Positions 3,550-63,808 of a DNA stretch of 64,000 nt are shown one piece after another; within the stretch, counting starts at the first letter, position 1; each line of letters begins with the position of its first letter. Position numbers and translations under genes: made by a program. Origin of the DNA: Streptomyces sp. NBC_00670 (GTDB lineage Bacteria > Actinomycetota > Actinomycetes > Streptomycetales > Streptomycetaceae); the NCBI RefSeq assembly GCF_036226765.1, contig NZ_CP109017.1, positions 6,945,001 through 7,009,000 of the forward strand, written 5' to 3'. The notes under the pieces were generated by a model. It made no database searches, was not told where the DNA came from, and saw only the letters and a program-made list of their open reading frames with translations.

Positions 3550-5376
3550 TCAGGCGTCGGCCTTCGCGAGGAGCTCGCGGCGCCGCTCGAGGTAGCCCTC
3601 CCGCAGCTCGCGGTCGGAGCAGGCGTCGGCCTTCGCGAGGAGCTCGTCCGCCTCGGACCGCAGCAGGATGGCGTCGCTGTCGCGCGCCGACTGCGCCTGC
3701 GCCGCGGTACGGGTCAGCGCGGGGCCGCCCGGCAACGGCATCGCCTGCAGCTCGCCGATCGTCTTCATCGCCTTCGCCAGCTCGCCCGTGAGCGACTCGA
3801 TGCGCTCCTCGTGGGCGGTGTTGGCCTCTGCGACGGCGGTCTTCACGAGCTCGGCCACGTCGGCCTTCGTGAGAGCCTCGGCGGCACCCTGCTCCGTGGG
3901 AGCGGTGTCCGCCGGCGTGGGCGCCACCGGCGCCGCCTCCCCGCCCTCGCCGGCGGCAGAGGCGGGGGCGTCGGCCTTGGCGGTGGTGGCCTGGTCGGCA
4001 CGGTCCATGGCGTGAGCGTCCTTCTCGCACTGCTCCCGCTCGTTGAACCACTTCAGGGAGCGGACGGCGTCCAGGAGGAGGCTGATGTCCATCGCCTCGT
4101 GCAGGTTGCCCTCGGCGAGGGACTCCGCCTCGCTGATGATCAGCTTGGCGATGCACGCGATGGCCTCGGTGGCGGTGGCGATCGCCGCGTCCTCGTCCCC
4201 GCCCTCCCCACCGTCGCCTTCCCCGCTGCCCTCACCGTCGGTGGCGGTGTCGTCGGCCTTCGCGAGATCCGGGACCAGGCCGCGGACCTCCCGCAGGATC
4301 TCCTCCGCCTTGGCGACCCGCACTGCCTGCTCCGCAGTCTCCTGCCCGGCGCCGTCGGCCTTCGCCGCACCGCCCTTCTCCGAGCCGTCGGCGTTCCAGT
4401 TCTGGGGCACCATGCCCTCCAATCCGAGGGCCTTGGCCCGCTTGATGATGTGCTTGCGGATCGCGTCGTGGTCGGCGTTGCCGCGCCCCACCGCCTTGAT
4501 GGCCTTGCGCAGGTCCGCCTTGCTCGTGATCGGATACGAGCCGTCCGGCATCGCCGCACCCGCACTCGCCGCGCGGCGCCGGCCTGCGGCGGTGAGGTCG
4601 GCCTTGCCGAGCTCGGCGAGACGCTCGTCGACCAGGCCCCGGATGAGCTCCTCCGAGACAGGGCCCCCGTCGACCTTGATCAGGAACGACGGAGACGAGA
4701 CCACCACCGGCGACCGGGTGCCGGCGTCGGTCTTGGCGGCCTCGGCGACGACTGCTGCGCCGGCGTCGGCCAGGCTCGTCAGCGCCGTGCGTACCGCGTC
4801 GGGCAGCTGCTCGTAGACGTCCTCGGGGATCCCGAAGGCAGCTGCGTCCGTCTTCTCCACCAGGAGGGCGCCCTCGACCGCCTCGAGCGTGCCGTCGGCG
4901 CCGTCGGCCTTCGCGATCTCGAACGTGGTCGTCGGGTTGCAGGGCCGGTCGACGACGGATACCTCGACGATGTCCCCTCCGACGACCTCACCGCCCGGAG
5001 CGTCCGCCTTCCCGACCTTGATCCTGGGGTTCTTGATCCCGACGCTGAACCCCTTGAGGACCTTGTGCTTCACCTTCAGACACGCCACCGGATCGACGAT
5101 GTGCGCGGCCAGGAGGTGACCGGTGTCGCCGTCGCCCTTCGTGAGGCCGACGCCGACACCGACCGCCCGTTTCGCATCGTGCTGCTCACGGACGTTCGCC
5201 CCCTCGCTGAACCAGGCCGGCATCGCCTTGTCCAGCCAGTCCGCGTTCAGGCGCTGCCTGTCGCGGTCGAGGTGGGAGGACGCGGCGGGCCCGTAGACCA
5301 TGAACGTGCCGTCGTCCTGCTCCTCCGACTTGGTGATCGGCGCCCACGCGAAGGTGAGCCCCTGGTTCGGGTCCAT
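3550..5376 (-). CDS. Prohead maturation protease with scaffold-like tail
   Basis: A 608-residue protein that combines a serine prohead protease with a scaffold. The protease is residues 1-150: His66 in NVREQHDAKR and Ser111 in KGFSVGI match the catalytic pair of the herpes/HK97 assemblin family. Residues about 275-340 carry the MPDGSYPI...KHIIKRAKALG module often found next to actinophage proteases. Residues 385-440 are helical and acidic, and 515-560 form a coiled coil, as expected of a scaffold. The tripeptide KAD recurs about ten times along the chain, often as A/G-K-A-D-A/G. It lies between portal and capsid genes, the standard position. Confidence 0.85.
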   Translation of the reverse strand: MDPNQGLTFAWAPITKSEEQDDGTFMVYGPAASSHLDRDRQRLNADWLDKAMPAWFSEGANVREQHDAKRAVGVGVGLTKGDGDTGHLLAAHIVDPVACLKVKHKVLKGFSVGIKNPRIKVGKADAPGGEVVGGDIVEVSVVDRPCNPTTTFEIAKADGADGTLEAVEGALLVEKTDAAAFGIPEDVYEQLPDAVRTALTSLADAGAAVVAEAAKTDAGTRSPVVVSSPSFLIKVDGGPVSEELIRGLVDERLAELGKADLTAAGRRRAASAGAAMPDGSYPITSKADLRKAIKAVGRGNADHDAIRKHIIKRAKALGLEGMVPQNWNADGSEKGGAAKADGAGQETAEQAVRVAKAEEILREVRGLVPDLAKADDTATDGEGSGEGDGGEGGDEDAAIATATEAIACIAKLIISEAESLAEGNLHEAMDISLLLDAVRSLKWFNEREQCEKDAHAMDRADQATTAKADAPASAAGEGGEAAPVAPTPADTAPTEQGAAEALTKADVAELVKTAVAEANTAHEERIESLTGELAKAMKTIGELQAMPLPGGPALTRTAAQAQSARDSDAILLRSEADELLAKADACSDRELREGYLERRRELLAKADA

Positions 5377-8422: not shown

Positions 8423-9898
8423 TCAGGCGGCGGCGTACTCGCGGAGCCAGTCCATGGACTGCTCGGCGCCGCCGGGCGGGGTGTAGAACGCGAGGATGAG
8501 GGCGTCGGCGTCGTCCGGGGAGCGGCCGAGGCGTTTCTTCGTCTCGTCCTTGGGCTCGACGACGGTCCGGCCGGCCGCGTCGATGCTGTACTTCGGGGCG
8601 GTGAGCTGTGTGACGAGCTGCTCGCGGTGCTTCTCCTCCAGCTCGGACAGGTCCCAGGACCGGTCCTCCGACAACTGCCGGGCCACACGCCACCAGATCT
8701 CCGACCGCAGGCGCGGGAACTTCTCCGGCTCCGACGACTTCTCGGAGACGTTCACCGGGACGATGACGGCCTGGTGCTCGCCCCTGAGGCCCTTCTCCCG
8801 GAGGTTGCCGGCGATGCCCCAGCCGATCCCGATGGAGTCGATCTTCACGGCGGTCGGCTTGACCTGCTGAATGATCTCCAGGAGGCGCGCGGTCGCCTTG
8901 ACCGGGTCCTTCTCCCGGAACCCCCACCGGCGGCCGACGACCATCCCGCGGCGCTCCCAGACGACGGTCTCGTCGCCGCCCCCGCCCATGTCGATGCCGA
9001 GCTCGTGCGGCACCTGCTCCGCGGCCGGCCGCGTCTCCTCACGCTCGGCGTGGCAGGCGCGCAGGGCGGAGAGGCGGACGACGCCGTCCTCGGCCTCGTC
9101 CGGGAACTCACCCAGCACCTTGCTGATGTAGGTCGGGGAGGTCTCGCCGAACTCGTCGCGCATGTCGTCGACGTAGGCCTGGCTGACCAGACTCGGCCGC
9201 AGCTCGTCCGGCACGGGCTCGCCGGTGAAGTTGGGGGTGTCGAACGTGCTGATGTGGATGGTGTTCCAGCGCGAGCCCGGCTGGCACACGCGGGCGAAAT
9301 GGGAGCCCGGGTCGTCGGGGTTGCCGATCGCGAGGATCCGGCAGTGCTCGCCCGTCGCGATGGACATGGCGGCGGTCCAGAACTGCTTGTTCACCCCGCA
9401 CGCCTCGTCCAGGATCACGAGGACGAATTTGGCGTGGATGCCCTGGAAGGCGTGAGGGTTGTAGTCGGACGGCTTGCGGCCGAAGGCGATCAGCTGCTTG
9501 CCGTACTTCCAGTCGGTCTCGTTGACCCGGCCGATGAAGAGCTCGCCGCGCTGCTCGGCCTTCACCCAGGCGCCGTTGATCTCGGACCACAAGATCGCCT
9601 TGACCTGGTCCCCGGTCGGCGCCGTGGTGACCACGCGCGCCTGGCCGGGCGGGTGGGTGTCCAGCCACCAGCACACCAGCCGGCTCGCGCTGAAGCTCTT
9701 GCCGGAGCCGTGGCAGGAGTGGACGGCCGTGAACCGGTTCGTCCGCACGGACTCGGCGATCTCGAGCTGCTTGGACCACAGGTGCTCACCGAGCTTGTCG
9801 CGCGCCCACTCGCCCGGCTGCGCCGCGTACGTCTCGGCCTTCCGCTCCCGCTCCAGGTCTTCGTCGATCCGGTCCGCGGCGAGAGCGAGGAAGTCCAC
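8423..9898 (-). CDS. terL: Terminase large subunit
   Basis: A 491-residue DNA-packaging motor. The ATPase half has a Walker A loop at residues 61-68 (S-C-H-G-S-G-K-S) and a Walker B strand V-L-V-I-L-D-E-A near 158-165 with the catalytic Glu. The nuclease half has an RNase H-like strand G-I-D-M-G-G-G-G-D-E near 315 and the acidic C-terminal D-D-A-D-A-L-I-L pattern near 465. Length is normal for the family. It lies after the small subunit with 13 bases between them; the GTG start has GAGGT upstream. Confidence 0.93.
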   Translation of the reverse strand: MDFLALAADRIDEDLERERKAETYAAQPGEWARDKLGEHLWSKQLEIAESVRTNRFTAVHSCHGSGKSFSASRLVCWWLDTHPPGQARVVTTAPTGDQVKAILWSEINGAWVKAEQRGELFIGRVNETDWKYGKQLIAFGRKPSDYNPHAFQGIHAKFVLVILDEACGVNKQFWTAAMSIATGEHCRILAIGNPDDPGSHFARVCQPGSRWNTIHISTFDTPNFTGEPVPDELRPSLVSQAYVDDMRDEFGETSPTYISKVLGEFPDEAEDGVVRLSALRACHAEREETRPAAEQVPHELGIDMGGGGDETVVWERRGMVVGRRWGFREKDPVKATARLLEIIQQVKPTAVKIDSIGIGWGIAGNLREKGLRGEHQAVIVPVNVSEKSSEPEKFPRLRSEIWWRVARQLSEDRSWDLSELEEKHREQLVTQLTAPKYSIDAAGRTVVEPKDETKKRLGRSPDDADALILAFYTPPGGAEQSMDWLREYAAA

Positions 9899-19939: not shown

Positions 19940-20005
19940 CTACGCGCCGGCATGCGGGGCGACCGCGGTCAACCGCTCACGCGCTGCGGCGGCGTTGGTG
20001 GCTGA
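19805..20005 (+). CDS. Possible 66-residue plus-strand ORF, maybe a gene remnant
   Basis: Reads M-W-E-L-L-T-L-P-L-A-E-R-L-R-A-G-Y-Q-A and continues as a plausible helical protein for about 45 residues with GC-rich third positions. It then runs antisense into the 3' end of the methyltransferase gene. There is no ribosome site before the ATG. It could be the end of an older gene cut by insertion of the methyltransferase, or chance. Confidence 0.25.
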   Translation: MWELLTLPLAERLRAGYQAASEKADLSMAEPFPHHERIARTHPYGLRAGMRGDRGQPLTRCGGVGG

Positions 20006-20680
20006 CTGCTCGACGCCGATGAAGGAGCGGTCCTCCAAGAGCGCGGCCACGCCCGTGGTGCCAGCCCCGGCGAACATGTCGAGGACGGTCCCACCGGGCG
20101 GCACGATCCGCACCAGCTGCTGCATGACCTCAATCGGCTTCTGGGTGATGTGGATCCGGTCGCGGCCTCGTGGCTGGCTGCCAGTGAAGTGGCCAGGCAG
20201 GTAGACGGGTTGGTTGCCGGGGATCATCGCGCCGTGGCTTCCCCAGACGATGAACTCGCAGTCCTGCTTGAGCCGGCCGGGCTGGGGGCGGGCGATCGGC
20301 TTGTGCCAGACGGCGATGCCCCGCCAGGTGTAGCCGGCGGCCTGCAGCGCGTCGGTCGTAGCGGGGAGTTGACGCCAGTCGGTGAAGACTAGCGCCGCCC
20401 CGCCGGGGCGGGTCAGGCGGTACCCGTGAGCGAGGACCATGGCCAGCCAGGCGGCGTAGGACCGCTGGTCTCGGTTCTCGCCGGTGAAGTCGCCCAGGTC
20501 GAAGCCATGCCGTCTGCCACCGTTGGTGAGGTACTTCTCGCGGGCGGTGCGGCTGGTCCGCTCCGTCATCGTGCGGCCGCCAGAGTTGTACGGCGGATCG
20601 CAGATGACCGCGTCAACTGGGGTGTCCAGGGTGGGGAGGACGGTGAGGGCATCGCCCTCATGCACAGTCCAGGTAGACAT
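19940..20680 (-). CDS. Site-specific DNA methyltransferase (DPPY class)
   Basis: A 246-residue enzyme that should transfer a methyl group from SAM to adenine N6 or cytosine N4 in DNA. Motif IV D-P-P-Y is at residues 28-31 and the SAM-binding motif F-A-G-A-G-T-T-G comes after it near residue 198. This order defines the beta class. The segment Q-K-P-I-E-V-M near 180 is typical just before motif I. No cognate endonuclease gene is next to it, so it is an orphan phage methylase that may protect phage DNA from host restriction or modify packaging or regulation. Confidence 0.88.
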   Translation of the reverse strand: MSTWTVHEGDALTVLPTLDTPVDAVICDPPYNSGGRTMTERTSRTAREKYLTNGGRRHGFDLGDFTGENRDQRSYAAWLAMVLAHGYRLTRPGGAALVFTDWRQLPATTDALQAAGYTWRGIAVWHKPIARPQPGRLKQDCEFIVWGSHGAMIPGNQPVYLPGHFTGSQPRGRDRIHITQKPIEVMQQLVRIVPPGGTVLDMFAGAGTTGVAALLEDRSFIGVEQSATNAAAARERLTAVAPHAGA

Positions 20681-28832: not shown

Positions 28833-30095
28833 TTAGCGGGTTGTGGGAGGGGCCGCAGGGCTGGTGTGGGAGGGGGCGGGCGCGCGCCGTCTGCCGGTAC
28901 CGCGAACCCGGACCAGGGACAGGGGGATGCACAGGGCCGCGGCGGCGCCGAGGCCCCACAAGGCGGTGCTGCCGAGGTACCCGCCGGCGAGCGAGGCGGC
29001 GGTGCCCGCGTAGACGCCGACCTGCGCGAGGGCGCGGCGGCGGCGTCGCGTCATCGGGGTGATGACGGTCTTGCGTCCGGAGCGTCCGGTCCAGGAGGCG
29101 TAGTGGCGGCCCAGGAACCACTCACGGCACATCGACTTGGTGTACAGCCACTTGTTGTAGAAGTTCAGGAGCGTGTACGGGGCGAAGCCGAGGGCGGCCT
29201 TCTTCCAGCCGACGACGCGGGAGACCAGGTACATGGTCAGCGCGGTGTGGCCGGCGAACCAGTAGCCCATGTACCGGAACATCGACAGGTGCTGCCAGGT
29301 GGCCAGGTTGTAGACCACGACGAGCGCCCACCACCACAGCGTGACGAGATCGAACATCGCCGTCCCCACCGTGAGGAGGGATCGCCAGTGCCACATCTGC
29401 CCGCGGTACCGGGCGACGTTCTGGAAGTAGCCGGCGGCCCACCGGGGCATCTGCGCCCGGTACTCGGCCCAGTTCTCCGGGTCGACGGTGAGGGTCAGCG
29501 CGGCCGGGGTGTACCAGGCCTTGTAGCCGTTCTCGTGGAGTTTCCAGGTGATGTCCATGTCGGCGCTGATGAGGCCGTTGGGGAAGCCGCCGACAGCCCG
29601 CACCACGTCCGTGCGGAAGGCGTAGGAGGCGCCGGTGAGGACCTGGAGGCGGCCGACGCGGCGCTGGCACAGGCGCCACCACTGGCTGCCCAGGCTGTAG
29701 GCGAAGCGCCGGGCTTCGATGAAGAACCCGGTTTCCTGCAGGGGCAGGATGCTGGAGCAGGTGGCGTCGTAGCCCTTGGCCAGGTCGGCCAGCATCAGGG
29801 TGATGCAGTCCCGGGTGGGGCGGGAGTCGCCGTCGAAGCCGACGATCACGTCGGCCGTGATGTAGGGCAGGGCGTCGTTCTGGTTCGCCGCCTTGTCGGC
29901 GTGCGAGGTCTCCAGGACGAGGCTCGCGCCGGCCTCGCGGGCCACCTGGGCGGTGCGATCGTTGCAGGAGTCCGCCACGACGATGAGCTGGGCGATGGGG
30001 TACGGCTGGTCCAGGCACGCCTGGACCAGCTCCCCGATCGTCGTCTCCTCGTTGTGCGCGGGGATGAGGACGGCGACCGTCAGCGGCTGGGTCAG
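28833..30095 (-). CDS. Processive family-2 glycosyltransferase (polysaccharide synthase)
   Basis: A 420-residue membrane enzyme that should polymerise a nucleotide sugar into a surface polysaccharide, like hyaluronan or cellulose synthases. The nucleotide-binding Asp42 (A-D-S-C-N-D), the D-G-D at residues 88-90, the acceptor A-D-M-D at 178-181 and Q-M-P-R-W at 215-219 make a complete processive GT2 set. About four to five transmembrane helices follow (245-300 and 360-400). No ATG or GTG lies at a suitable place; a CTG at 30095 overlaps the upstream TGA as CTGA and gives a natural N-terminus. The ATG at 30227 would swallow the 38-residue gene and has no ribosome site. The neighbour is a nucleotide-sugar dehydrogenase, the likely substrate supplier. 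Confidence 0.88.
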   Translation of the reverse strand: MTQPLTVAVLIPAHNEETTIGELVQACLDQPYPIAQLIVVADSCNDRTAQVAREAGASLVLETSHADKAANQNDALPYITADVIVGFDGDSRPTRDCITLMLADLAKGYDATCSSILPLQETGFFIEARRFAYSLGSQWWRLCQRRVGRLQVLTGASYAFRTDVVRAVGGFPNGLISADMDITWKLHENGYKAWYTPAALTLTVDPENWAEYRAQMPRWAAGYFQNVARYRGQMWHWRSLLTVGTAMFDLVTLWWWALVVVYNLATWQHLSMFRYMGYWFAGHTALTMYLVSRVVGWKKAALGFAPYTLLNFYNKWLYTKSMCREWFLGRHYASWTGRSGRKTVITPMTRRRRRALAQVGVYAGTAASLAGGYLGSTALWGLGAAAALCIPLSLVRVRGTGRRRAPAPSHTSPAAPPTTR

Positions 30096-30208
30096 CCCCG
30101 GCTCTGCCCCGTCACGAACTTCAGTGCGCCCCCGACCGCGCCCATCACGATCGCGACGAACGTCAGGAGCATCGCTCCGAAGCCGGTGTGCGCCAGGCCG
30201 TTGTACAT
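30092..30208 (-). CDS. 38-residue membrane peptide between dehydrogenase and synthase
   Basis: Reads M-Y-N-G-L-A-H-T-G-F-G-A-M-L-L and has one hydrophobic helix (M-L-L-T-F-V-A-I-V-M-G-A-V-G-G-A-L). AAGGGAG sits six bases before the ATG, and the stop overlaps the glycosyltransferase start. A micro subunit of a polysaccharide synthase is plausible given its place, but not proven. Confidence 0.6.
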   Translation of the reverse strand: MYNGLAHTGFGAMLLTFVAIVMGAVGGALKFVTGQSRG

Positions 30209-30232
30209 GTGTTCTCCCTTGGGTCATGGCTG

Positions 30233-31507
30233 TCACAGCCGTTCGATGTGCGGGGCGACGGGCATGACGCCCCGCGTGTCCAGCACGTAGGCCGCCTGGT
30301 CGGCGACCGCGGTGAGGTCGAATTCGTCGTGCGCGGTGAGGAGCACGACGGCGTCGTAGTGCCCGTACGGCATCGGAGGCGTGGGCCCGGCGAGAGCCGT
30401 CGGCGCAGTGGCGGGGCGGCAGGTGCGCTCGGCCGCGACGTGCGGGTCGAGGGTGTCGACGAAGGCGCCCTTGGCCTGGAGCTGGGCGACGACCTCGGCG
30501 GCCGGTGACTGCCGGGCGTCGCTGGTGCCCGGCTTGTACGCCAGGCCGAGCGCCAGGATCCGGGCGCCGTGCACGCCGCGGTGGAAGCGGACGTTGAGCG
30601 CGTCCTGAAGGCGCTGGACGACATAGGCGGGCTGGCCGTCGTTGATGTCCTGCGCGAGCTCCACGAGCCGGAACGCCTGCCCGTGCCGGGTACGGACGTG
30701 GTGGGTGAGGTAGACCGGGTCGACCGGCAGGCAGTGCCCGCCCACACCCGGACCCGGCAGGAACCTGGTGAACCCGAAGGGCTTGGTGCCGGCGAGCCGC
30801 AGGGCGCGCCACACGTCCACCCCGAGGGTGTGGGCCAGGCGGCTGAGCTCGTTGACGAGGGCGATGTTCACGTGGCGAAACGTGTTTTCGAAGACCTTTG
30901 CCAGCTCTGCCTCTTCCGGGGTGCCGGCGGGGACGAGGTACTGCGTGAGCCCGGCGTAGAAGTGCTCGACCCGGTCCAGGCACTCCGGCGTCAGCCCGGA
31001 GATGATTTTCGGGGTGTTGGTGAACCGCCACTGCTCGTTGCCCGGGTCGATGCGCTCCGGGCTGAACCCGAGATGGAAGTCCCGGCCCGCTTGCAGACCG
31101 GTGGCCTTCTCCAGGATGGGCATCAGTACGCCGCGCGTGGTGCCCGGGTGGGTGGTCGACTCCAGCACCACCAGGCCCCCATGCCTCAGGTGGGATCCGA
31201 CGGTCTGCGCGGCCTCCCGTACGGCGCTGAGATCGGGCTGGCGGTCCGTCAGCGGCGTGGGCACGGTGATGACGGCGACGTCGAACCCGGCGAGGAGTTC
31301 CTCGTGCCGGGTCGGCTGGTAGCGGCCGGTGGCCAGGGCCCGGCGGAGACTTTCGTCGGGGACGTCCTCGACGTACGAGCGGCCTACCTGGAGCTGTTCG
31401 CACCGCTGTGTGTCGGGTTCGAACCCGACGACGTGGTGGCCGTCCTCGATGGCGGCCATGGCGAGGGGCAGGCCGACGTAGCCCTGCCCCATCACGACGA
31501 TCTTCAC
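30233..31507 (-). CDS. Nucleotide-sugar (UDP-sugar) 6-dehydrogenase
   Basis: A 424-residue NAD-dependent enzyme that should oxidise the C6 hydroxyl of a UDP-hexose to a uronate, providing the building block of an acidic polysaccharide. The Rossmann motif G-Q-G-Y-V-G is at residues 7-12; E-S-T-T-H-P-G-T is at 116-123; S-P-E-R at 149-152; the catalytic Cys259 lies in G-G-H-C-L-P-V-D-P. The G-G-H-C form is typical of UDP-N-acetyl-hexosamine as well as UDP-glucose dehydrogenases, so the exact sugar is open. Length is full. GTG start. It precedes the 38-residue peptide and the synthase, forming a three-gene cassette. Confidence 0.9.
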   Translation of the reverse strand: MKIVVMGQGYVGLPLAMAAIEDGHHVVGFEPDTQRCEQLQVGRSYVEDVPDESLRRALATGRYQPTRHEELLAGFDVAVITVPTPLTDRQPDLSAVREAAQTVGSHLRHGGLVVLESTTHPGTTRGVLMPILEKATGLQAGRDFHLGFSPERIDPGNEQWRFTNTPKIISGLTPECLDRVEHFYAGLTQYLVPAGTPEEAELAKVFENTFRHVNIALVNELSRLAHTLGVDVWRALRLAGTKPFGFTRFLPGPGVGGHCLPVDPVYLTHHVRTRHGQAFRLVELAQDINDGQPAYVVQRLQDALNVRFHRGVHGARILALGLAYKPGTSDARQSPAAEVVAQLQAKGAFVDTLDPHVAAERTCRPATAPTALAGPTPPMPYGHYDAVVLLTAHDEFDLTAVADQAAYVLDTRGVMPVAPHIERL

Positions 31508-36050: not shown

Positions 36051-36158
36051 GTGGATCAGTCGAAGTCGGAGACGGTGGACGTCGAACTGCCGGTGGACGG
36101 TCGGGTCTGGTCGTCCGCGCCGGTGCGGATCGAGGACGTCGAGGACGAGGGCCCCTGA
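36051..36158 (+). CDS. 35-residue acidic peptide, candidate TfuA-YcaO substrate
   Basis: Short ORF starting GTG, preceded by GAGGAG seven bases upstream. The peptide is acidic (M-D-Q-S-K-S-E-T-V-D-V-E-L-P and later I-E-D-V-E-D-E-G-P) with the less acidic core G-R-V-W-S-S-A-P-V-R. It lies 126 bases before tfuA in the same direction, with a stable hairpin between them, the layout often seen for a RiPP precursor expressed more strongly than its enzymes. It has no Cys. Whether it is the substrate is unproven; it may instead be a leader-like regulator of the operon or a non-functional ORF. Confidence 0.45.
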   Translation: MDQSKSETVDVELPVDGRVWSSAPVRIEDVEDEGP

Positions 36159-36225
36159 ACCCTGACTCCAGCCGGGGCGCGTTGCCTCCCCGGGTGTACG
36201 TCTGACCAGTTCGTGCTGTTCGTGT

Positions 36226-36257
36226 GGTGCCCCGATGCCTGCGGGTGTCGGGGCACC
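36226..36257 (+). terminator. Hairpin between peptide gene and tfuA
   Basis: Perfect 10-bp stem GGTGCCCCGA/TCGGGGCACC with a 12-base loop and no T-tract. It could act as a partial terminator or mRNA-stabilising structure that separates peptide and enzyme levels. Confidence 0.5.
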
Positions 36258-36284
36258 GCCTTGTCCAGGAGAAGGGGGTTCGGG

Positions 36285-37559
36285 GTGATTCACGTTTTCA
36301 CGGGGCCGACGCTGCCCGCGGACGACGACGTGCTGAAAGGCGGGCGGGTGCGGGTGCGTCCTCCGGTGCGGCATGGGGATCTGTTCGGTCTGGCGATCGC
36401 CGGCGGGGACGCGGTGGTGCTGGTCGACGGGGTGTACCACCAGCATGCGGCGGTGCGGCACAAGGAGATCCTCGCCCTGCTGGCGCGGGGTGTGCGGGTG
36501 ATCGGGGCGGCGAGTATCGGTGCGTTGCGGGCGGTGGAGCTCGAGGTGTTCGGTATGGAGCCGGTCGGCCGGGTGGCGGAAGGGTTCAGGTCCGGGCGGC
36601 TGGTCGGGGACGACGAGGTCGCGGTCGGACAGGACCCGCAGGACGCCACGGCGGTGACGTGGCCGTTGGTGAACGTGCGGGAGGTCCTGGCGTCCGGTGT
36701 GGCCGCCGGGGTCCTGGAGCGCCGGGCGGCCGACGAGGTGCTCGAGGCGTTGCGGGCGGTGTTCTACCCGCAGCGGACGTGGGCGGCCGTGAGGGCGGTG
36801 TGCCGGCAGCGCGCGGGTGCGGAGTTCGTGGAGTGGCTCGCCGGGCAGCGGGAGCGGTATCCGCGGTTCGGGGACGTGAAGTACGCGGATGCCCGGGCCG
36901 CTGTGCTCCTGGCGCTCGTCGGCGACGGCCAGGAGTACCAGTGCGTGGGGGCCGGCGGCGGGGTCCGGGCGGGGGCGGTCTGCTGGGACTCGGGGTACTT
37001 CCGGCGCTGGCGCAACGATCTTGCTGTGGAGGAGGCCGGCGGGCGGCGTCTGCCGACCCGCCTGCGTCTCGCGTACCAGCAGGTTTTCGATCCGTTGTTC
37101 CCGGTGGTGTGGTGGCGGTTCCTCGAGGAGTTGTCGCTGCGGCCGGGGGACGGCAGTGCGGGGATGCCGCTGACGGAGCGGATGGCCCCCTATCCGGGGC
37201 TGCCGGTGCACGCCGTGTTCCGCGTGGAGCCGGACCTGTCGGACCCGCGCGTCGTGGAGCTGCTGCTGGGACGCGAGACGAGGGCGGACCGGGCGGCCGT
37301 GGCCCGGTACGCGGAGGCGGACGCCCGGGCGCGGCGGACGGTTGTGGGGTACGTGGCGGAGGCTGTGCGGGATGAGGTGGCGGTGGGGGTGCTGACGTCG
37401 GTGTGGGGCTGCGGTGAGGACGGGCTGGACGAGGCTGCGGCAGTGCGTGGGCTGCGCAGCGGGGGCCGGGCGGTGGAGGTGGTGAAGCCGTTCGTGATGG
37501 GGCTGTACGGCGACCGGCGGCGCGGGGCTGTGGCGGCGGGTGCGGGGAGGGCGCTGTGA
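36285..37559 (+). CDS. tfuA: TfuA-like protein (thioamidation partner of YcaO)
   Basis: A 424-residue protein with a TfuA-like core at residues 1-200: V-F-T-G-P-T-L near the start, V-L-V-D-G-V-Y at 45-51, G-A-A-S-I-G-A-L-R-A-V-E-L at 74-86, G-M-E-P-V-G at 90-95 and D-D-E-V-A-V at 109-114. In characterised pairs TfuA works with YcaO to place sulfur in a peptide backbone (thioamide), probably by handling the sulfur donor. Residues 200-424 form a helical C-terminal region present in the longer TfuA proteins. GTG start with GGAGAAGGGGG upstream; it overlaps ycaO by four bases. Confidence 0.85.
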   Translation: MIHVFTGPTLPADDDVLKGGRVRVRPPVRHGDLFGLAIAGGDAVVLVDGVYHQHAAVRHKEILALLARGVRVIGAASIGALRAVELEVFGMEPVGRVAEGFRSGRLVGDDEVAVGQDPQDATAVTWPLVNVREVLASGVAAGVLERRAADEVLEALRAVFYPQRTWAAVRAVCRQRAGAEFVEWLAGQRERYPRFGDVKYADARAAVLLALVGDGQEYQCVGAGGGVRAGAVCWDSGYFRRWRNDLAVEEAGGRRLPTRLRLAYQQVFDPLFPVVWWRFLEELSLRPGDGSAGMPLTERMAPYPGLPVHAVFRVEPDLSDPRVVELLLGRETRADRAAVARYAEADARARRTVVGYVAEAVRDEVAVGVLTSVWGCGEDGLDEAAAVRGLRSGGRAVEVVKPFVMGLYGDRRRGAVAAGAGRAL

Positions 37560-38674
37560 TGCGGGGGACGGTGCGGGCGCGTACGGCGGAGGAGACGTGG
37601 GCGGTGCTGGAGCCTCAGTTGGGCCGGTACGGGATCACGCGGGTGGCGGACCTGACGGGGCTGGACTGTCTGGGGATTCCGGTATGGACGGCGATCCGGC
37701 CGGGGGCGGTCACGCTGTCGGCGTCGCAGGGCAAGGGGGCGACGGGCCGGCTGGCGGCGGTCTCGGCGGTGATGGAGGCGCTGGAGCTGTGGCATGTTGA
37801 GCAGCCGCTGCGGGCGAGCTGGCTGGGTACGGCGGGCGAGGTGGGGGCGCCGTGGCCGTTGACGGAGCTGTCGTGCCGGGTGAGGCACGGCGGGCTCGAG
37901 GCGGTGACGCTGCCGTGGGCGGCCGGCACGGGGTTGATCGATGGTGGGGCGGTGCCGGTGCCGGTGGGGCTGGTGGAGCGGCGCCGCCCGCGGCTGTGGG
38001 AGCCGGCGTTGTTCAGGGCGACGAGCACGGGGGTGGCGTGCGGGAACACGTGGGCGGAGGCGGTGCTGCACGGCCTGTACGAGGTGGTGGAGCGGCACAC
38101 CCTGCACGCGGATGAGCAGCTCGGAGGGACGGCGCGGCGGTGGTTCGATCCGGGCACCGTCGTGGACTCCTACGCCGGGTCGCTGATCGGGCGGATCACG
38201 GGGGCGGGGGCAGTGCTGGAGACGGCGTGGGTGGTGAGCCCGTACGGGCTGCCGGTGTGCCTGGCCTATCTGTGGTCGGAGGACTATCCGCTGTGGTTCG
38301 CCGGGTCGGGCTGCCACCACGATCCGCACGTGGCGCTCGCCCGGGCGGTGACGGAGGCCGCCCAGTCCCGGCTGACGTGTATCGCGGGCACGCGGGACGA
38401 TCTGCCCTCGCGGGAGGACGTCTTCGACGCGGTGGCGGTACGACCGCGCCCCAAGCGGGCGGCCGCGCGGTGGGACGACGTTCTCGTCGAGTACACGCCC
38501 GGGCCGGGCGGGACGTTCGAGGAGCAGGCCGGGCATGTCGCTGAGGTGGTGCGCGGGGTGACGGGCTGGGAGCCGGTCGCGGTCGACCTGGCCCGGCCGG
38601 ACACCGCGTTCGCCGTGGTGAAGGTGATCGCGCCGGGGGCGACCTCGAGGACCAGGAGGTCGATCCCCCGATGA
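37556..38674 (+). CDS. ycaO: YcaO-family ATP-dependent cyclodehydratase/thioamidase
   Basis: A 372-residue ATP-using enzyme that activates a peptide amide oxygen by phosphorylation. Signature residues are present: S-Q-G-K-G at 57-61, S70-x3-E74-x2-E77, E176-V-V-E179-R, and E-A-A-Q270-S-R272. The usual Arg after E77 is Leu here. With an adjacent TfuA the expected reaction is backbone thioamidation rather than azoline formation. The C-terminus ends in R-S-I-P-R and lacks the P-x-P-x-P tail of azoline enzymes; the last codons read differently in the other frame (see findings). Start is GTG or the ATG one codon later, coupled to tfuA by overlap. No leader-binding RRE domain is visible. Confidence 0.9.
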   Translation: MMRGTVRARTAEETWAVLEPQLGRYGITRVADLTGLDCLGIPVWTAIRPGAVTLSASQGKGATGRLAAVSAVMEALELWHVEQPLRASWLGTAGEVGAPWPLTELSCRVRHGGLEAVTLPWAAGTGLIDGGAVPVPVGLVERRRPRLWEPALFRATSTGVACGNTWAEAVLHGLYEVVERHTLHADEQLGGTARRWFDPGTVVDSYAGSLIGRITGAGAVLETAWVVSPYGLPVCLAYLWSEDYPLWFAGSGCHHDPHVALARAVTEAAQSRLTCIAGTRDDLPSREDVFDAVAVRPRPKRAAARWDDVLVEYTPGPGGTFEEQAGHVAEVVRGVTGWEPVAVDLARPDTAFAVVKVIAPGATSRTRRSIPR

Positions 38675-39432
38675 CGGACACCCGTGAGGAGGTGCTGGCG
38701 GAGCACTTCGACGCGTTCCACACCGCGCGGGCCGCGCACGGCCTGGTGGACCGCCTGTATGCGGAGGCGATGGGCGACGCCTACCCGCACGACGTCGCCC
38801 CCTACAGCTCCTGCGACCTGGTCCTCCTGGGCCAGCTGGTGGGACGGCTCCGGCTGCGGCCCGGCCAGGTGTTGGGGGACGCGGGGTGCGGGACGGGCGG
38901 GGTGGGGCTGTGGCTGGCCCGGGCGCTGGGCGTGCGGCTGGTCGGCTGGGACGTCTCTCTGGCGGCCGTACGGCTCGCGACCGGGCGCGCCGCGCGGTTC
39001 GCGATGGCGGGGCGTGCCGAGTTCCGGGTGGGGACGCTCGAGGCGAGCCGGCTCCCGGAGGAGAGTCTGGACGGGCTGGTGTGCGTGGACGCGTTCGCCA
39101 ACGCCGATGCCGGGCGGGCGCTGGGCGAGATGCGGCGGGTGATCCGGGCGGGCGGCCGGCTGGTCGTGACGCGGGCCGGAACCGGCGACGTCCAGGGCAG
39201 GGCGGTGACGCAGGCCGCCGAGGCGGGTCTGGTCGTGGAGGAGATCGTGGTGCGGGCGGGTGAGCCGGCGATGTGGGAGCGGCTGTACGGGCTGTGGCAG
39301 GAGCGGGAGGCGGAGTTGCGGCGGGCGGTCGGCGACGAGCAGGCCGGGCGGATGCTGCGTGAGGCCGAGCGGATGGTCCCGCGGCTGGCTGCCCGTACGG
39401 CGCTCCTCGTGACCATGCGGGTGCCCGGATAG
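38671..39432 (+). CDS. Class I SAM-dependent methyltransferase
   Basis: A 253-residue enzyme with motif [12 protein letters not shown] at residues 67-77, the acidic ribose-binding W-D at the end of the next strand near 90, and a D-G-L-V-C-V-D-A-F segment near 130 typical of small-molecule or peptide methyltransferases. It overlaps ycaO by ATGA, so it is probably part of the same pathway and may methylate the TfuA-YcaO product. The substrate cannot be told from sequence. Confidence 0.82.
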
Positions 39433-39475
39433 GGTCGCCGGGTCAGCGTCAGGCATCAGGCAAGGGGACAGGTGG

Positions 39476-40486
39476 ATGGTGCGGGTTGCGGTGCTCTCCG
39501 CGGGATCGTGGGGTACGACCATGGCCAAGGTGTTCGCGGACGCGGGCAACCGCGTGACGGTGCACGCGCGCCGGCCCGAACTCGCCGCCGCGATCAACCG
39601 CGAGCACGTCAACCCGGACTATCTGCCGGGGATCGTCCTGCCCGGGCTGCTGCGCGCGACGAGCGACGTCGGTGAGGCGCTGGCGGGGGCCGAGTATGTG
39701 GTGCTGTCGATCCCGGCGCAGTCTCTGCGGTCCAATCTGGCCGGCTGGGCGCCGCTGATTGAGCCGGACGCGGTCCTCGTCAGCCTGATGAAGGGCATCG
39801 AGACGGACAGCGGGCTGCGGATGAGTCAGGTCATCCAGCACGTCACCGGGGTGCCGGAGGAGCGGGTGGCGGTGCTGTCGGGGCCGAACCTGGCCAGGGA
39901 GATCGCCGCCGGGCACCCCGCCGCCTCCGTCATCGCCTGCCCCGACGAGAACTCGGCCCGCTACCTGCAAGAGGCGTCGCACACCCCGTACTTCCGCCCC
40001 TACACAGCGACCGACGTGGTGGGGTGTGAGCTCGGCGGGGCGGTGAAGAACGTGATCGCGCTCGCGGTCGGGCTCGCCGGCGGGCTCGGCCTGGGCGACA
40101 ACGCGCGCGCCCTCCTCATCACCCGCGGCCTTGCGGAGACAGCCCGGCTCGGGGCGGCGATGGGCGCGGACCCGTTGACGTTCTCCGGGCTCGCCGGGGC
40201 CGGCGACCTCATCGCGACCTGCTCCTCACCGCTGTCGCGGAACCGGACGTTCGGCGAGCACCTCGGCCGAGGCCTCAGCGTCGAGGAAGCTACCGCGGCG
40301 ACCAGGCAGACCGCGGAAGGCGTGAAGTCCTGCCGCGCGGTGCTCGGGCTGGCCCGGGCGCACGGGGTGGAGATGCCGATCACCGAGGTTGTCGCCGCGG
40401 TCGTCGACGGCACCGCGACCGTGAGGGACGCCGCCGACGTTCTCCTCGCCCGCACCCCGAAGCCGGAACGCTACAGCGCCGCCTGA
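39476..40486 (+). CDS. gpsA: NAD(P)-dependent glycerol-3-phosphate dehydrogenase
   Basis: A 336-residue enzyme that interconverts dihydroxyacetone phosphate and sn-glycerol 3-phosphate, normally feeding phospholipid or teichoic-acid synthesis. The Rossmann motif (A-G-S-W-G-T-T near residues 9-15), the G-A-V-K-N catalytic Lys segment near 190, and [11 protein letters not shown] near 237 are all present, and the length is that of the family. It follows the methyltransferase by 43 bases with AAGGGGAC upstream and is probably the last gene of the operon. A housekeeping gene copy in a mobile peptide-modification operon is unusual. Confidence 0.9.
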
Positions 40487-40632: not shown

Positions 40633-41145
40633 TTGAGCTATTACCCGCCCCAACAGCCATACCAGCCGCAGCCGCCCACCCGCCCGGCGCCGAAGTGGGC
40701 ACGGAAACGGTTCGTGCTGCCCGCCATGGGGCTGGCGTTGTTCGTCGGTGTCGGAATCGGGGCCAGCGGCCAGGACACCAACGTCCAGGCCGCGGCCGAC
40801 GCCAAGGCCCGGCCCGCGACCACGGTGACGGCGACCGCGACGGAGACCGCGAAGCCGGAGCCGGCCCCGACCGTCACCAAGACGAAGAAGGTCACGGTGA
40901 AGGCGACCGTGACCGTCACCGCGCGCGCCGCGTCAGGCTCGGGCGGTTCGTCGAGCGGGGGAAGTTCCAGCGGCGGATCGTCCGGCGGGAGCACCAGCTC
41001 CTCGGGCGGCTCCAGCTCGTCCGGGGGCGGGAGCGTCGCCGGAGGCGGGGCGACCGCCAAGTGCAACGACGGCACCTACTCGTACGCCGCCCACCACCAG
41101 GGCGCCTGCTCCCACCACGGCGGCGTAGCGGTCTTCTACAAGTAG
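40633..41145 (+). CDS. Membrane-anchored DUF3761 protein
   Basis: A 170-residue protein. A Pro/Gln-rich N-terminus precedes one transmembrane helix (residues 30-47), a Thr/Val/Lys stretch and a long Gly/Ser linker. The C-terminal 30 residues contain C-N-D-G-T-Y-S, H-H-Q-G-A-C-S-H-H-G-G-V-A, the DUF3761 signature with two Cys and several His, located outside the cell. Start is TTG with GGGGGGAC upstream. Host-surface function is inferred; DUF3761 proteins have no known activity. Confidence 0.75.
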   Translation: MSYYPPQQPYQPQPPTRPAPKWARKRFVLPAMGLALFVGVGIGASGQDTNVQAAADAKARPATTVTATATETAKPEPAPTVTKTKKVTVKATVTVTARAASGSGGSSSGGSSSGGSSGGSTSSSGGSSSSGGGSVAGGGATAKCNDGTYSYAAHHQGACSHHGGVAVFYK

Positions 41146-41758: not shown

Positions 41759-42571
41759 TTACGGAATGGCCCACTTCTTCCACCAGCAGCGCGTGGTCAC
41801 GAACGACGTACCACCCATCACCTTCACGCCGTAACCGAGCAGCATGCCAGACGGCGACCTGTACAGCTGGTGCTTGCACAGCAGCAGGTTCTCCGCGCAG
41901 TCCTCATCGTTCGCCGGGCCTGTGAGCGCGCAGTTGAGGAGGCCGGCATGGATGTCGGCCAGCTGCACGCCGTCCCAGTCCGTTCCGGTCCACGTGGGAG
42001 GCCACTTGATGTGCTCCCATGGCACGCCCCAGGTCTGGACGTGTCCCTGACGGACCCAGTCGAGATAGTTGGCCGTCTCCGCGTGGTCCATCCCTCTTAC
42101 AGCGCCGAGCCTGACGACGGCCAGGCGCGGGCCGCCCTCCCATCGCGCAGCGGCATGAGCCACGCGCTCGAGGAGGTAACGGGTGGTGTAGTTGTAGAAG
42201 CGGACGCCGTCCTGCATTCCGTCCCACGCGCGTACTTCGTCTTTCGGGACGATGACGTGGATGACCTTCGCGGAGGGCATGCTGGCGAGGGTCCTGGCTG
42301 CGGCGACGCGGCGCTCCGGGCGCTTGCGCTTGAAGTGGTCGACCCAGTGGAGCGGAGTCGTGCTCTCGGGTCGGCTGGAGTGGATGAGGGCCCGCAGGCC
42401 GCCGGCAGCGACCTTGACGCTCCAGTGGTCCTCGGCGGGGACCATGAGGGCGCACATGGCGAAGAACGGCGAGCTGGAGGTGCTGAAGCCGCGGTCGCCG
42501 GTCTCGTCAACGTACACGTTGAGCTTGGGGAGCGAGCCGGCCTCGGAGAGGCTCAGCCGCTTGCGGGTCAC
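41759..42571 (-). CDS. DUF3800 family protein
   Basis: A 270-residue protein with V-Y-V-D-E-T-G-D-R-G-F near residues 19-29, the start signature of DUF3800, which has an RNase H-like fold, and a later D-W-D-G-V-Q-L-A-D-I-H-A that could supply further acidic residues. Such proteins are scattered through mobile elements and defence regions, activity unknown. GTG start. The gene lies at the island border, next to a long inverted repeat. Confidence 0.72.
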   Translation of the reverse strand: MTRKRLSLSEAGSLPKLNVYVDETGDRGFSTSSSPFFAMCALMVPAEDHWSVKVAAGGLRALIHSSRPESTTPLHWVDHFKRKRPERRVAAARTLASMPSAKVIHVIVPKDEVRAWDGMQDGVRFYNYTTRYLLERVAHAAARWEGGPRLAVVRLGAVRGMDHAETANYLDWVRQGHVQTWGVPWEHIKWPPTWTGTDWDGVQLADIHAGLLNCALTGPANDEDCAENLLLCKHQLYRSPSGMLLGYGVKVMGGTSFVTTRCWWKKWAIP

Positions 42572-45381: not shown

Positions 45382-45971
45382 AGTGCTAGCCCTTGGTGGG
45401 CGAGGTCGTCGAGGAAGCGGGCCCGGGTGAGGTTGTGGCGGGCGTCGGCGAGGGCGTTGTGTTCGCCGTCCGGCTGTTCCGGCATGCGCGGGTTGCCCAG
45501 TCGCTGGCATTCCTGGCGCAGGTCGTTGGTCCACATCGGGATGCCGTCGGGCAGGCTGATCATCCGGCCGAAGAGCTGCGCGAGGGCGACGTGGTCGTAG
45601 GCGCCGTACCAGGCCCACAGCTCCACGTCCGGCCCGGCGGCCGCGATGAAGTCGCGGACGGCGTTGCGGATCATCCGTCGGGGCATGACGACGTTGCTCG
45701 TCATGTCGAGGTTGAAGAAGCCCCGGTAGGCCCCGGTGTCCGACAGCCGGCCGTGTCCCTTCCTCCCGCCCGTGGTGTGCAGGGGGAGGTGGGGGACGAC
45801 GTTCTCCATCAGCCACTGGTGGTTGCAGATCCGGCCGTTGAGTGGGTCCGCGCTGATCTCCTCGTTGACGGCGTACAGCTCGCGGCCGTCCTCGGTGACC
45901 ATGCCGATGCTGATCAGGTCGATGGTGCGGCCGTCCTCAAGGAACTCGGTGTCGTAGAAAATGCGGGTCAT
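45378..45971 (-). CDS. 3'-5' exonuclease, DnaQ/RNase H-like fold
   Basis: A 197-residue enzyme that should remove nucleotides from 3' ends using two metal ions. Acidic residues fit the DEDDh family: Asp7 and Glu9 in F-Y-D-T-E-F, a middle Asp in W-Y-G-A-Y-D-H-V near residue 120, and H-N-A-L-A-D-A-R-H near 175. It resembles the Rv2179c-like exoribonuclease group common in actinophages. Substrate (RNA or DNA) is not certain. It overlaps both neighbours. Confidence 0.8.
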   Translation of the reverse strand: MTRIFYDTEFLEDGRTIDLISIGMVTEDGRELYAVNEEISADPLNGRICNHQWLMENVVPHLPLHTTGGRKGHGRLSDTGAYRGFFNLDMTSNVVMPRRMIRNAVRDFIAAAGPDVELWAWYGAYDHVALAQLFGRMISLPDGIPMWTNDLRQECQRLGNPRMPEQPDGEHNALADARHNLTRARFLDDLAHQGLAL

Positions 45972-63475: not shown

Positions 63476-63808
63476 TCAGCCCGTGGGCCGACGTCGGCGG
63501 CCGGCGGAGGGCCGGATGCTCGTCAGCGTCAGGACGGACGTCCCGGCCGACGGCGGCCCCTGCTCGGCGGGCGCCTGGGTGTCGAGCGGCGACACCTGGT
63601 GCATCTCCTTGATCCGGCGCACCTGCGCCGCGTCGAAGGACACCGCGCGGCCGAACTTGTGGTGCGGCAGGCGGGAGACGTTGTCCTCGATGAACCTCTT
63701 CTTGATGCCGAGGAGCTCGGCGAGCTCGGCGACGGAGTAGCACTTCAGGCTGCTGTCGACGAGGTAGGCGACGAGCGCGTCGACCGACTCGATCTGCGGG
63801 CCGCTCAC
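63476..63808 (-). CDS. Excisionase-like HTH protein
   Basis: A 110-residue protein with a MerR/excisionase HTH (C-Y-S-V-A-E-L-A-E-L-L-G-I-K-K-R-F-I at residues 23-40) and K-F-G-R-A-V-S-F after it, then a basic tail. GTG start overlaps the next gene. It may be a regulator controlling lysogeny or recombination. Confidence 0.65.
   Translation of the reverse strand: MSGPQIESVDALVAYLVDSSLKCYSVAELAELLGIKKRFIEDNVSRLPHHKFGRAVSFDAAQVRRIKEMHQVSPLDTQAPAEQGPPSAGTSVLTLTSIRPSAGRRRRPTG

Follow-up and report, generated by a model that had tools for sequence, protein, structure and literature searches.

The operon described here lies in a stretch of 64,000 nucleotides, below called the window, which corresponds to positions 6,945,001–7,009,000 of the 7.58 Mb single-contig genome of Streptomyces sp. 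NBC_00670. It is one operon on the + strand encoding TfuA, YcaO, an S-adenosylmethionine (SAM) dependent methyltransferase and a GpsA-type glycerol-3-phosphate dehydrogenase, with an open reading frame (ORF) of 35 residues ahead, and the element that carries it is a prophage of about 80 kb. The operon is complete and apparently functional for the biosynthesis of a putative thioamidated ribosomally synthesized and post-translationally modified peptide (RiPP). Judged from the sequence, the product of the operon is very probably a sulfur-modified peptide, and the GpsA looks like a self-resistance gene product. The reading that we prefer, with a probability of roughly 0.57, is that this prophage cargo would produce a thioamidated RiPP that inhibits GpsA, with the GpsA of the operon as a tolerant immunity copy. 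The wider proposal, that such a peptide inhibits bacterial GpsA and travels with a tolerant GpsA on plasmids and prophages, and that orphan gpsA genes are traces of widespread exposure, is put forward more tentatively, at somewhat short of even odds.

In the proposed pathway the 35-residue peptide would be the precursor, with a conserved C-terminal block (..VRIEDVEDE..) as the part likely to be modified. TfuA would free sulfide from a ThiS-type thiocarboxylate of the host, YcaO would use ATP to convert one or more backbone amides into thioamides, and the methyltransferase may add a methyl group, with a stem-loop behind the precursor gene keeping precursor mRNA above enzyme mRNA. The mature peptide would inhibit the glycerol-3-phosphate dehydrogenase of competitors, an enzyme of phospholipid synthesis, and the operon GpsA, instead of tailoring the peptide, would be a tolerant version of the product's target and protect the lysogen. 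That the product inhibits GpsA is the simplest idea suggested by a second copy of a central enzyme with an intact active site, and the retention of gpsA under purifying selection after repeated loss of the biosynthetic genes argues for immunity and not for tailoring.

Organization of the operon

The precursor peptide gene (36051..36158, + strand, as for all features of the operon) has a GTG start and encodes 35 aa, MDQSKSETVDVELPVDGRVWSSAPVRIEDVEDEGP, an assignment based on family conservation. A stem-loop with a 16 bp stem and a 4-nt loop is located in the gap before tfuA (36224..36259). The likely start of tfuA is the GTG at 36285 with AGGAG ahead, which corrects an earlier reading of this DNA made from the sequence only, and the gene (36285..37559) encodes a TfuA of 424 aa (PF07812, E 2e-38), the sulfur-transfer partner of YcaO. 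The start of ycaO overlaps the stop of tfuA in a GTGA at 37556, and its product (37556..38674, 372 aa; PF02624, E 1e-53) is a predicted ATP-dependent peptide backbone thioamidation enzyme. An ATGA at 38671 joins the ycaO stop to the start of the gene for a class I SAM-dependent methyltransferase of 253 aa (38671..39432; PF13649 Methyltransf_25, E 6e-14), a probable tailoring enzyme, and 44 nt separate its stop from the start of gpsA (39476..40486). The latter encodes a GpsA-type NAD(P)H-dependent glycerol-3-phosphate dehydrogenase of 336 aa (NAD_Gly3P_dh N and C, E 5e-49 and 4e-53), the proposed self-resistance copy. The coupled tfuA-ycaO operon with methyltransferase and gpsA that the sequence-only reading described is borne out by the ORFs and overlaps, the absence of a transporter or peptidase that it remarked on fits the operon in the window, and its phage-like mobile element is confirmed by structural and integration genes on both sides. 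It had overlooked the stem-loop as well as a gene pair that lies downstream of the operon in relatives.

All four enzymes of the window are open frames. They retain 57/59, 66/68, 42/43 and 90/90 of the columns invariant in other operons, and their ratios of nonsynonymous to synonymous substitution rates (dN/dS) against locus L031 are 0.21–0.42, which suggests that the operon is functional. The same values speak against a neutral passenger, that is a decaying plasmid fragment taken up by the prophage, which would agree with the long branch of the window YcaO (0.6 in a quick tree) and with the decayed copies found elsewhere (L050, L205, L206, L219), and which we regard as hardly probable at all.

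The precursor peptide family and the stem-loop

The comparison set consists of 124 loci, 49 with a YcaO of at least 50% identity and 75 below this value. A collection of 84,980 species was queried with a YcaO alignment and the best 80 of 545 relatives were kept, so that the 75 distant rows are only part of these relatives; the same kind of scan of genome contigs with a single YcaO sequence as query gave no matches. The 35-residue peptide matched no Pfam family, and it belongs to a real precursor family: an ORF of 34–49 aa of one family precedes tfuA in 44 of the 49 rows, with 39 distinct sequences. The peptides start with M and zero to three further residues, followed by SKS, SKA, AKS or PKS in almost all (L066 is an exception), and they end in ..V..EDVEDEGP as in the window, in ..VVVAVDVEDEE, ..VVRSEDVEQEECYTF or ..AEDVENDDPFVPA, or in close variants of these. 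The middle part varies in length and sequence across the family, and the type of end broadly tracks the YcaO tree. A fixed signature of the family is found in 43 of the 49 rows, the peptide of L066 with its MQFESTS start escaping it, and in none of the 75 more distant rows in a six-frame scan of the whole loci (1.1 Mb). This whole-locus scan, covering all 75, was added because tfuA lies behind ycaO in 56 of 72 distant rows; a look upstream of tfuA was impossible in four of the 75 (L116, L121, L133, L139). In the last ten codons of 20 peptide genes of the DEE type 1%, 0% and 16.5% of the bases vary at positions 1, 2 and 3, and this concentration at the third position is what a protein under selection would show.

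The five rows without the peptide are L043, L050 (decayed), L064 (the contig begins 205 nt upstream), L069 (tfuA start unmatched) and L070. The sequence-only reading had named the peptide as candidate for the operon's own substrate, and homologous operons without it or with another precursor as the finding that would count against this; with the peptide kept in 44 of 49 rows, and L043 and L070 lacking it, the candidate is supported. Its fallback, a phage or host protein as substrate of TfuA-YcaO with the small ORF being incidental, is not supported and was set aside since the small ORF is conserved. Such substrates do have precedents, archaeal TfuA-YcaO modifying McrA and backbone thioamidation of the ribosomal protein uL16 being reported in Pseudomonadota. 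With the signature confined to the clade among the loci scanned and codons that vary as in a protein, we consider this explanation very unlikely for the present operon. A neighbouring TfuA-YcaO family without methyltransferase or GpsA is seen in L051, L052 and L073, and in the first two a different acidic small peptide (..EDFEGLFAD..ITDSEVRD) stands beside the pair.

A stem of at least 9 bp is predicted in the gap between the peptide gene and tfuA in 36 of 38 loci, the two without being L037 and L046, compared with 7.3 expected from dinucleotide shuffles. The 38 loci are those of the 44 that remain when same-contig or same-record duplicates (L039, L067), loci with an identical peptide (L153, L158, L150) and L146 (tfuA start unmatched) are left out. 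The conserved stem-loop is a probable attenuator or processing hairpin, and fits an attenuator that holds precursor mRNA above enzyme mRNA.

TfuA, YcaO and the methyltransferase

Residues 1–217 of the TfuA model superpose on TfuA of Methanosarcina acetivorans (6xp8) with a Z of 24.3 and a root mean square deviation of 2.4 over 211 residues. S77 and K60 do not vary among 35 operon sequences or among 21 aligned TfuAs, the position of K60 being occupied by R in 6xp8. In PMC13185837, TfuA is described as hydrolysing the ThiS thiocarboxylate (ThiS-COSH) by a Ser-Lys pair, after which YcaO forms the thioamide; the host genome gives four matches to ThiS-family proteins. The best NCBIfam matches of YcaO are the general YcaO domain with 187 bits and the McrA-thioglycine YcaO model with 146 bits (cut-off 365), and its nearest solved relative is MJ1094 (6pe3). 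No separate family match to a RiPP recognition element (RRE) was obtained for the operon proteins in Pfam and NCBIfam, the C-terminal half of TfuA being predicted, hardly covered by the fold search and not searched alone.

In the loci of the operon clade L060–L071 tfuA is ahead of ycaO. Methyltransferase and GpsA are present together in 43 of the 49 rows with a YcaO of at least 50% identity vs none of the 75 rows below; the six exceptions are L046, L067, L060 and L064, all four cut off by a contig end, L050 (decayed) and L043, which is without both. A gene counted as present is not always intact, TfuA being in two pieces in L042 and the tfuA start out of frame in L146, and the match to the YcaO of L161 extends over 78% only. 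Homologues of the operon methyltransferase are also seen near a different TfuA-YcaO pair in L218, where it is on the opposite strand, and in L097.

Distribution on plasmids and in genomes

The operon YcaOs constitute one well-separated clade with a support of 100 in a quick tree, which was calculated without five duplicates (L039, L067, L153, L158, L150), L050, L161 and the distant rows below 41.5% identity. Within the genus, 14 of 392 genomes hold a YcaO of at least 50% identity over its length, and many Streptomyces plasmids, both linear and circular, carry the operon. A YcaO match was found in 284 plasmid records, and among the best 30, which were listed, 27 show at least 50% identity: 25 are named Streptomyces, one [Kitasatospora] papulosa (filed under Streptomyces) and one Embleya. 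All these 27 have a GpsA match as well. The regions of 22 of the 27 were opened, 21 of them being within the 49 rows, and the genome and plasmid samples may overlap. Among 50,697 phage records none matched the window YcaO and none its TfuA (E 1e-5). Two IMG/VR contigs, L140 and L141, contain distant YcaO-TfuA pairs with a YcaO of about 31% identity, and other phages may thus carry such systems.

Many relatives, those with DEE-type operons, have a downstream pair of genes, the first for a protein of about 118 aa that belongs to no family and the second for one of about 285 aa with a weak HTTM/MauE match (PF05090), for example L154:9065-10262. The pair gave no NCBIfam match, is absent from the operon in the window, and may have a role in export or immunity. 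Genes of about 1.2–1.35 kb are found near the start of many plasmid operons (L148:3023-4357, L034:1997-3265, L154:2004-3299, L033:994-2247 and others), annotated as XRE/helix-turn-helix (HTH) regulator, 'Tat pathway signal protein' or hypothetical. Of four that were scanned two have weak HTH matches, one of them also a TPR match, and no such gene was seen beside the prophage copy.

The operon GpsA and orphan gpsA genes

The operon GpsA belongs to the PRK00094 subfamily (456 bits, cut-off 257). A housekeeping gpsA with 65% identity to the operon copy is located elsewhere in the host genome, at 5,349,872, and gpsA is assumed to be essential in Streptomyces. Residues K106, K191, N192, D244, T248, R255 and N256, the catalytic roles of which we take to be those known from the human enzyme, show no variation among 39 operon and 30 housekeeping GpsAs. 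The GpsA tree of this comparison leaves out the five duplicates named above.

GpsA, methyltransferase and YcaO served as queries for a scan of the 392 genomes in which, after a first look, scoring was limited to about five candidates in each genome. More than one strong GpsA match was found in 32 genomes, 12 of which hold the four genes together. Orphan gpsA genes of the operon type, with neither tfuA nor ycaO, make up 17 loci, one per genome (one of two copies in G254); of the remaining genomes G131 and G191 were left out and G028 is cut by contig ends. Sixteen of the 17 orphans are open frames of 327–343 codons, the catalytic residues are all kept except for T248S in L212, and comparison with the nearest relative gives dN/dS values of 0.12–0.46. 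At 11 of the 17 loci the orphan is adjoined by what is left of the methyltransferase gene or the downstream pair. The clearest case is L208, with an open precursor gene, a methyltransferase gene that has lost its 5' end and a full gpsA, tfuA and ycaO being gone. A full gpsA beside operon remnants is likewise found in all seven Streptomyces plasmid loci L249–L255, where there is no tfuA within 4.5 kb and ycaO is gone or broken. The plasmid sample comprised six Streptomyces records without a listed YcaO of at least 50% identity, a second copy in a YcaO-bearing record (L255) and a Micromonospora locus (L256); NZ_CP108988, NZ_CP109481, NZ_CP109439 and other non-Streptomyces records were not part of it. 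L256, from plasmid pLB1 of Micromonospora terminaliae, has two inverted gpsA copies accompanied by a lysophospholipid acyltransferase and a cystathionine gamma-lyase, and is not of this operon family. In a tree of GpsAs several orphans branch beside different operon members, indicating that the biosynthetic genes have been lost repeatedly.

A near full-length gpsA thus outlives tfuA in 24 loci, 17 in genomes and seven on plasmids. A near full-length methyltransferase of at least 50% identity without GpsA is found in L218 only, beside another TfuA-YcaO pair, and L219 has a broken copy. The sequence-only reading had treated gpsA as a mere addition to the operon; that the gene is retained where the biosynthetic genes have been lost raises the likelihood of a role in resistance. 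The same retention bears on the possibility that the GpsA of this RiPP operon is a tailoring enzyme, reducing a carbonyl intermediate on the peptide, or supplies glycerol-3-phosphate that is attached to the product. The co-conservation of gpsA with the methyltransferase gene, the two frequently overlapping in the plasmid annotations, is in line with such a role, but an enzyme of this kind would be expected to degenerate once its pathway is lost, as the methyltransferase does, and the catalytic residues of the operon GpsA are those of the ordinary enzyme, so that we find this explanation doubtful.

The orphans are also relevant to the idea of an intracellular addiction module, in which the modified peptide would be a toxin, the tolerant GpsA its antidote, and plasmids and prophages would be stabilised by the pair. 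The location of the operon on many plasmids and here in a prophage would suit a module of this kind, as would the missing transporter and peptidase and the arrangement on plasmid NBC_00455, which has YcaO-methyltransferase at one site and an extra gpsA with the downstream pair at another. Transport genes are, however, likewise missing in known thioamidated RiPP clusters, as noted in PMC8120280, and the 17 orphan genomes are without a YcaO of at least 50% identity over its length, in keeping with protection against a product that reaches the cell from outside; we therefore judge an addiction module rather improbable. A phage auxiliary metabolic gene was also considered as the reason for gpsA and rejected, since the origin in the operon explains the gene better. 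Among the phage records there are 25 gpsA-like matches, of which none reaches 60% identity or carries the name of a Streptomyces phage (nine are only named 'Bacteriophage').

Several observations weigh against immunity by a tolerant GpsA, or against the peptide as its counterpart. An extra gpsA could simply raise the supply of glycerol-3-phosphate. As the last gene of the core operon, gpsA would tend to escape deletions that come in from the 5' side, and this bias is answered only in part by the genes further downstream, which are broken in L216 and L253 and open in L252 and L255. No operon remnants accompany six of the orphan loci (L199, L203, L207, L210, L213, L217), L210 is an ORF with a short start, L204 is at a contig edge and L212 has S for T248, and with about five candidates scored per genome copies may have been missed in the scans. 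The reverse case occurs once, L043 having TfuA-YcaO without GpsA, methyltransferase or recognisable peptide, and L070, also among the five rows without a recognisable peptide, has all four enzyme genes. Two independent recruitments of GpsA were seen in a rooted tree, but an approximately unbiased (AU) test does not reject a single clade (p 0.205); separate recruitments are thus not claimed, and the further argument they would have given falls away.

The prophage and its other genes

According to rough gene calls the genes of the prophage occupy the - strand between about 66.7 kb and about -13.5 kb in window coordinates, the + strand exceptions being two genes at 64.3–65.3 kb and a block at about 33.2–41.5 kb that includes the operon. 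The terminase large subunit is encoded at 8423..9898 (- strand; phrog_2, E 5e-40), a head maturation protease at 3550-5376 (PHROGs) and an excisionase at 63476..63808 (- strand; phrog_1840, E 2e-13). A phage integrase lies just outside the window (window coordinate 65445-66725, L058:1445-2725; PF00589, E 5e-21), and a minor-tail/tape-measure protein is located left of the window. An HNH endonuclease, WhiB and a sigma factor were also identified in the prophage region with PHROGs. A search for exact and near-exact repeats gave no convincing att sites, and the two flank genes were never side by side in the relatives searched, so that no empty site was found in these.

The operon is immediately followed by a gene for a DUF3761 protein at 40633-41145, and a DUF3800 protein is encoded on the opposite strand at 41759-42571. 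On the - strand at 28833-31507 a family 2 glycosyltransferase (28833-29978) and a UDP-glucose dehydrogenase (30233-31507) are found, perhaps polysaccharide cargo, and an N6/N4 DNA methylase is located at 19940-20680 on the - strand in the phage region. DNA at about 45407-45623 (- strand) shares 82–84% identity with genes for DnaQ-like exonucleases in several Gordonia phages, and elsewhere in 25000-49900 there is almost no match to phage records at this level.

Comparison with known systems

TfuA-YcaO RiPPs are already known, and a gpsA that looks like a self-resistance gene is new here. The operon family is probably the uncharacterised RiPPER 'Network 2' of Santos-Aberturas et al. 2019 (PMC6511847), an identity that we infer. 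In the accessible part of that paper Network 2 is described as 25 related, mostly unannotated short peptides of Streptomyces starting a conserved TfuA-associated operon, and is called a strong candidate RiPP family; GpsA, a resistance role and carriage by plasmids or prophages are not named for it there. As far as searched, the precursor signature, the conserved stem-loop, the carriage by plasmids and a prophage, and the evidence for GpsA as resistance gene and probable target are new. An uncharacterised peptide family thereby becomes a system whose substrate is named, whose minimal operon is defined and whose target is predicted, and a putative thioamide RiPP operon is placed in a prophage although no phage record matched its YcaO or TfuA.

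The thiovarsolins are, as the present system, Streptomyces RiPPs of the TfuA-YcaO type with a small precursor. According to the parts of PMC6511847 at hand, in particular a figure legend, they differ in having a repeat-type precursor and heme oxygenase-like, amidinotransferase and MFS genes, and a methyltransferase-GpsA pair is not named for them. The archaeal McrA thioglycine system (TfuA 6xp8, YcaO 6pe3; NF033432, TIGR03266) has a TfuA and a YcaO homologous to those of the window, but acts on a large enzyme, unlike the present peptide system, and the window proteins are far below its equivalog cut-offs (160 of 235 and 146 of 365 bits).

Carriage of a RiPP with its immunity by a prophage is known from sublancin in the Bacillus prophage SPbeta, which differs from the present system in chemistry, type of immunity and host. 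SdpA and SdpB are proteins of the Bacillus SDP toxin system, and the downstream pair of the DEE-type operons, a small protein and an HTTM-like membrane protein, is arranged like SdpA-SdpB. Membership of the pair in these families was not supported by any NCBIfam match and is left as a lead, and the pair is absent in the window.

The open literature search gave no report that joins gpsA with self-resistance and biosynthetic gene clusters, none that joins TfuA with glycerol-3-phosphate dehydrogenase, and no relevant GpsA inhibitor, the last judged from titles and the beginnings of abstracts. To our knowledge there is no natural antibiotic against the GpsA step. If GpsA is the target, the operon would provide a peptide scaffold aimed at a step of bacterial lipid synthesis that has been little used, and a resistance marker would already be in hand. 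The closest parallel for such a role is self-resistance by target duplication, as reportedly seen with FabF in the antibiotic cluster of platensimycin, and as in those clusters, a second copy of an enzyme taken to be essential is here located beside the biosynthetic genes.

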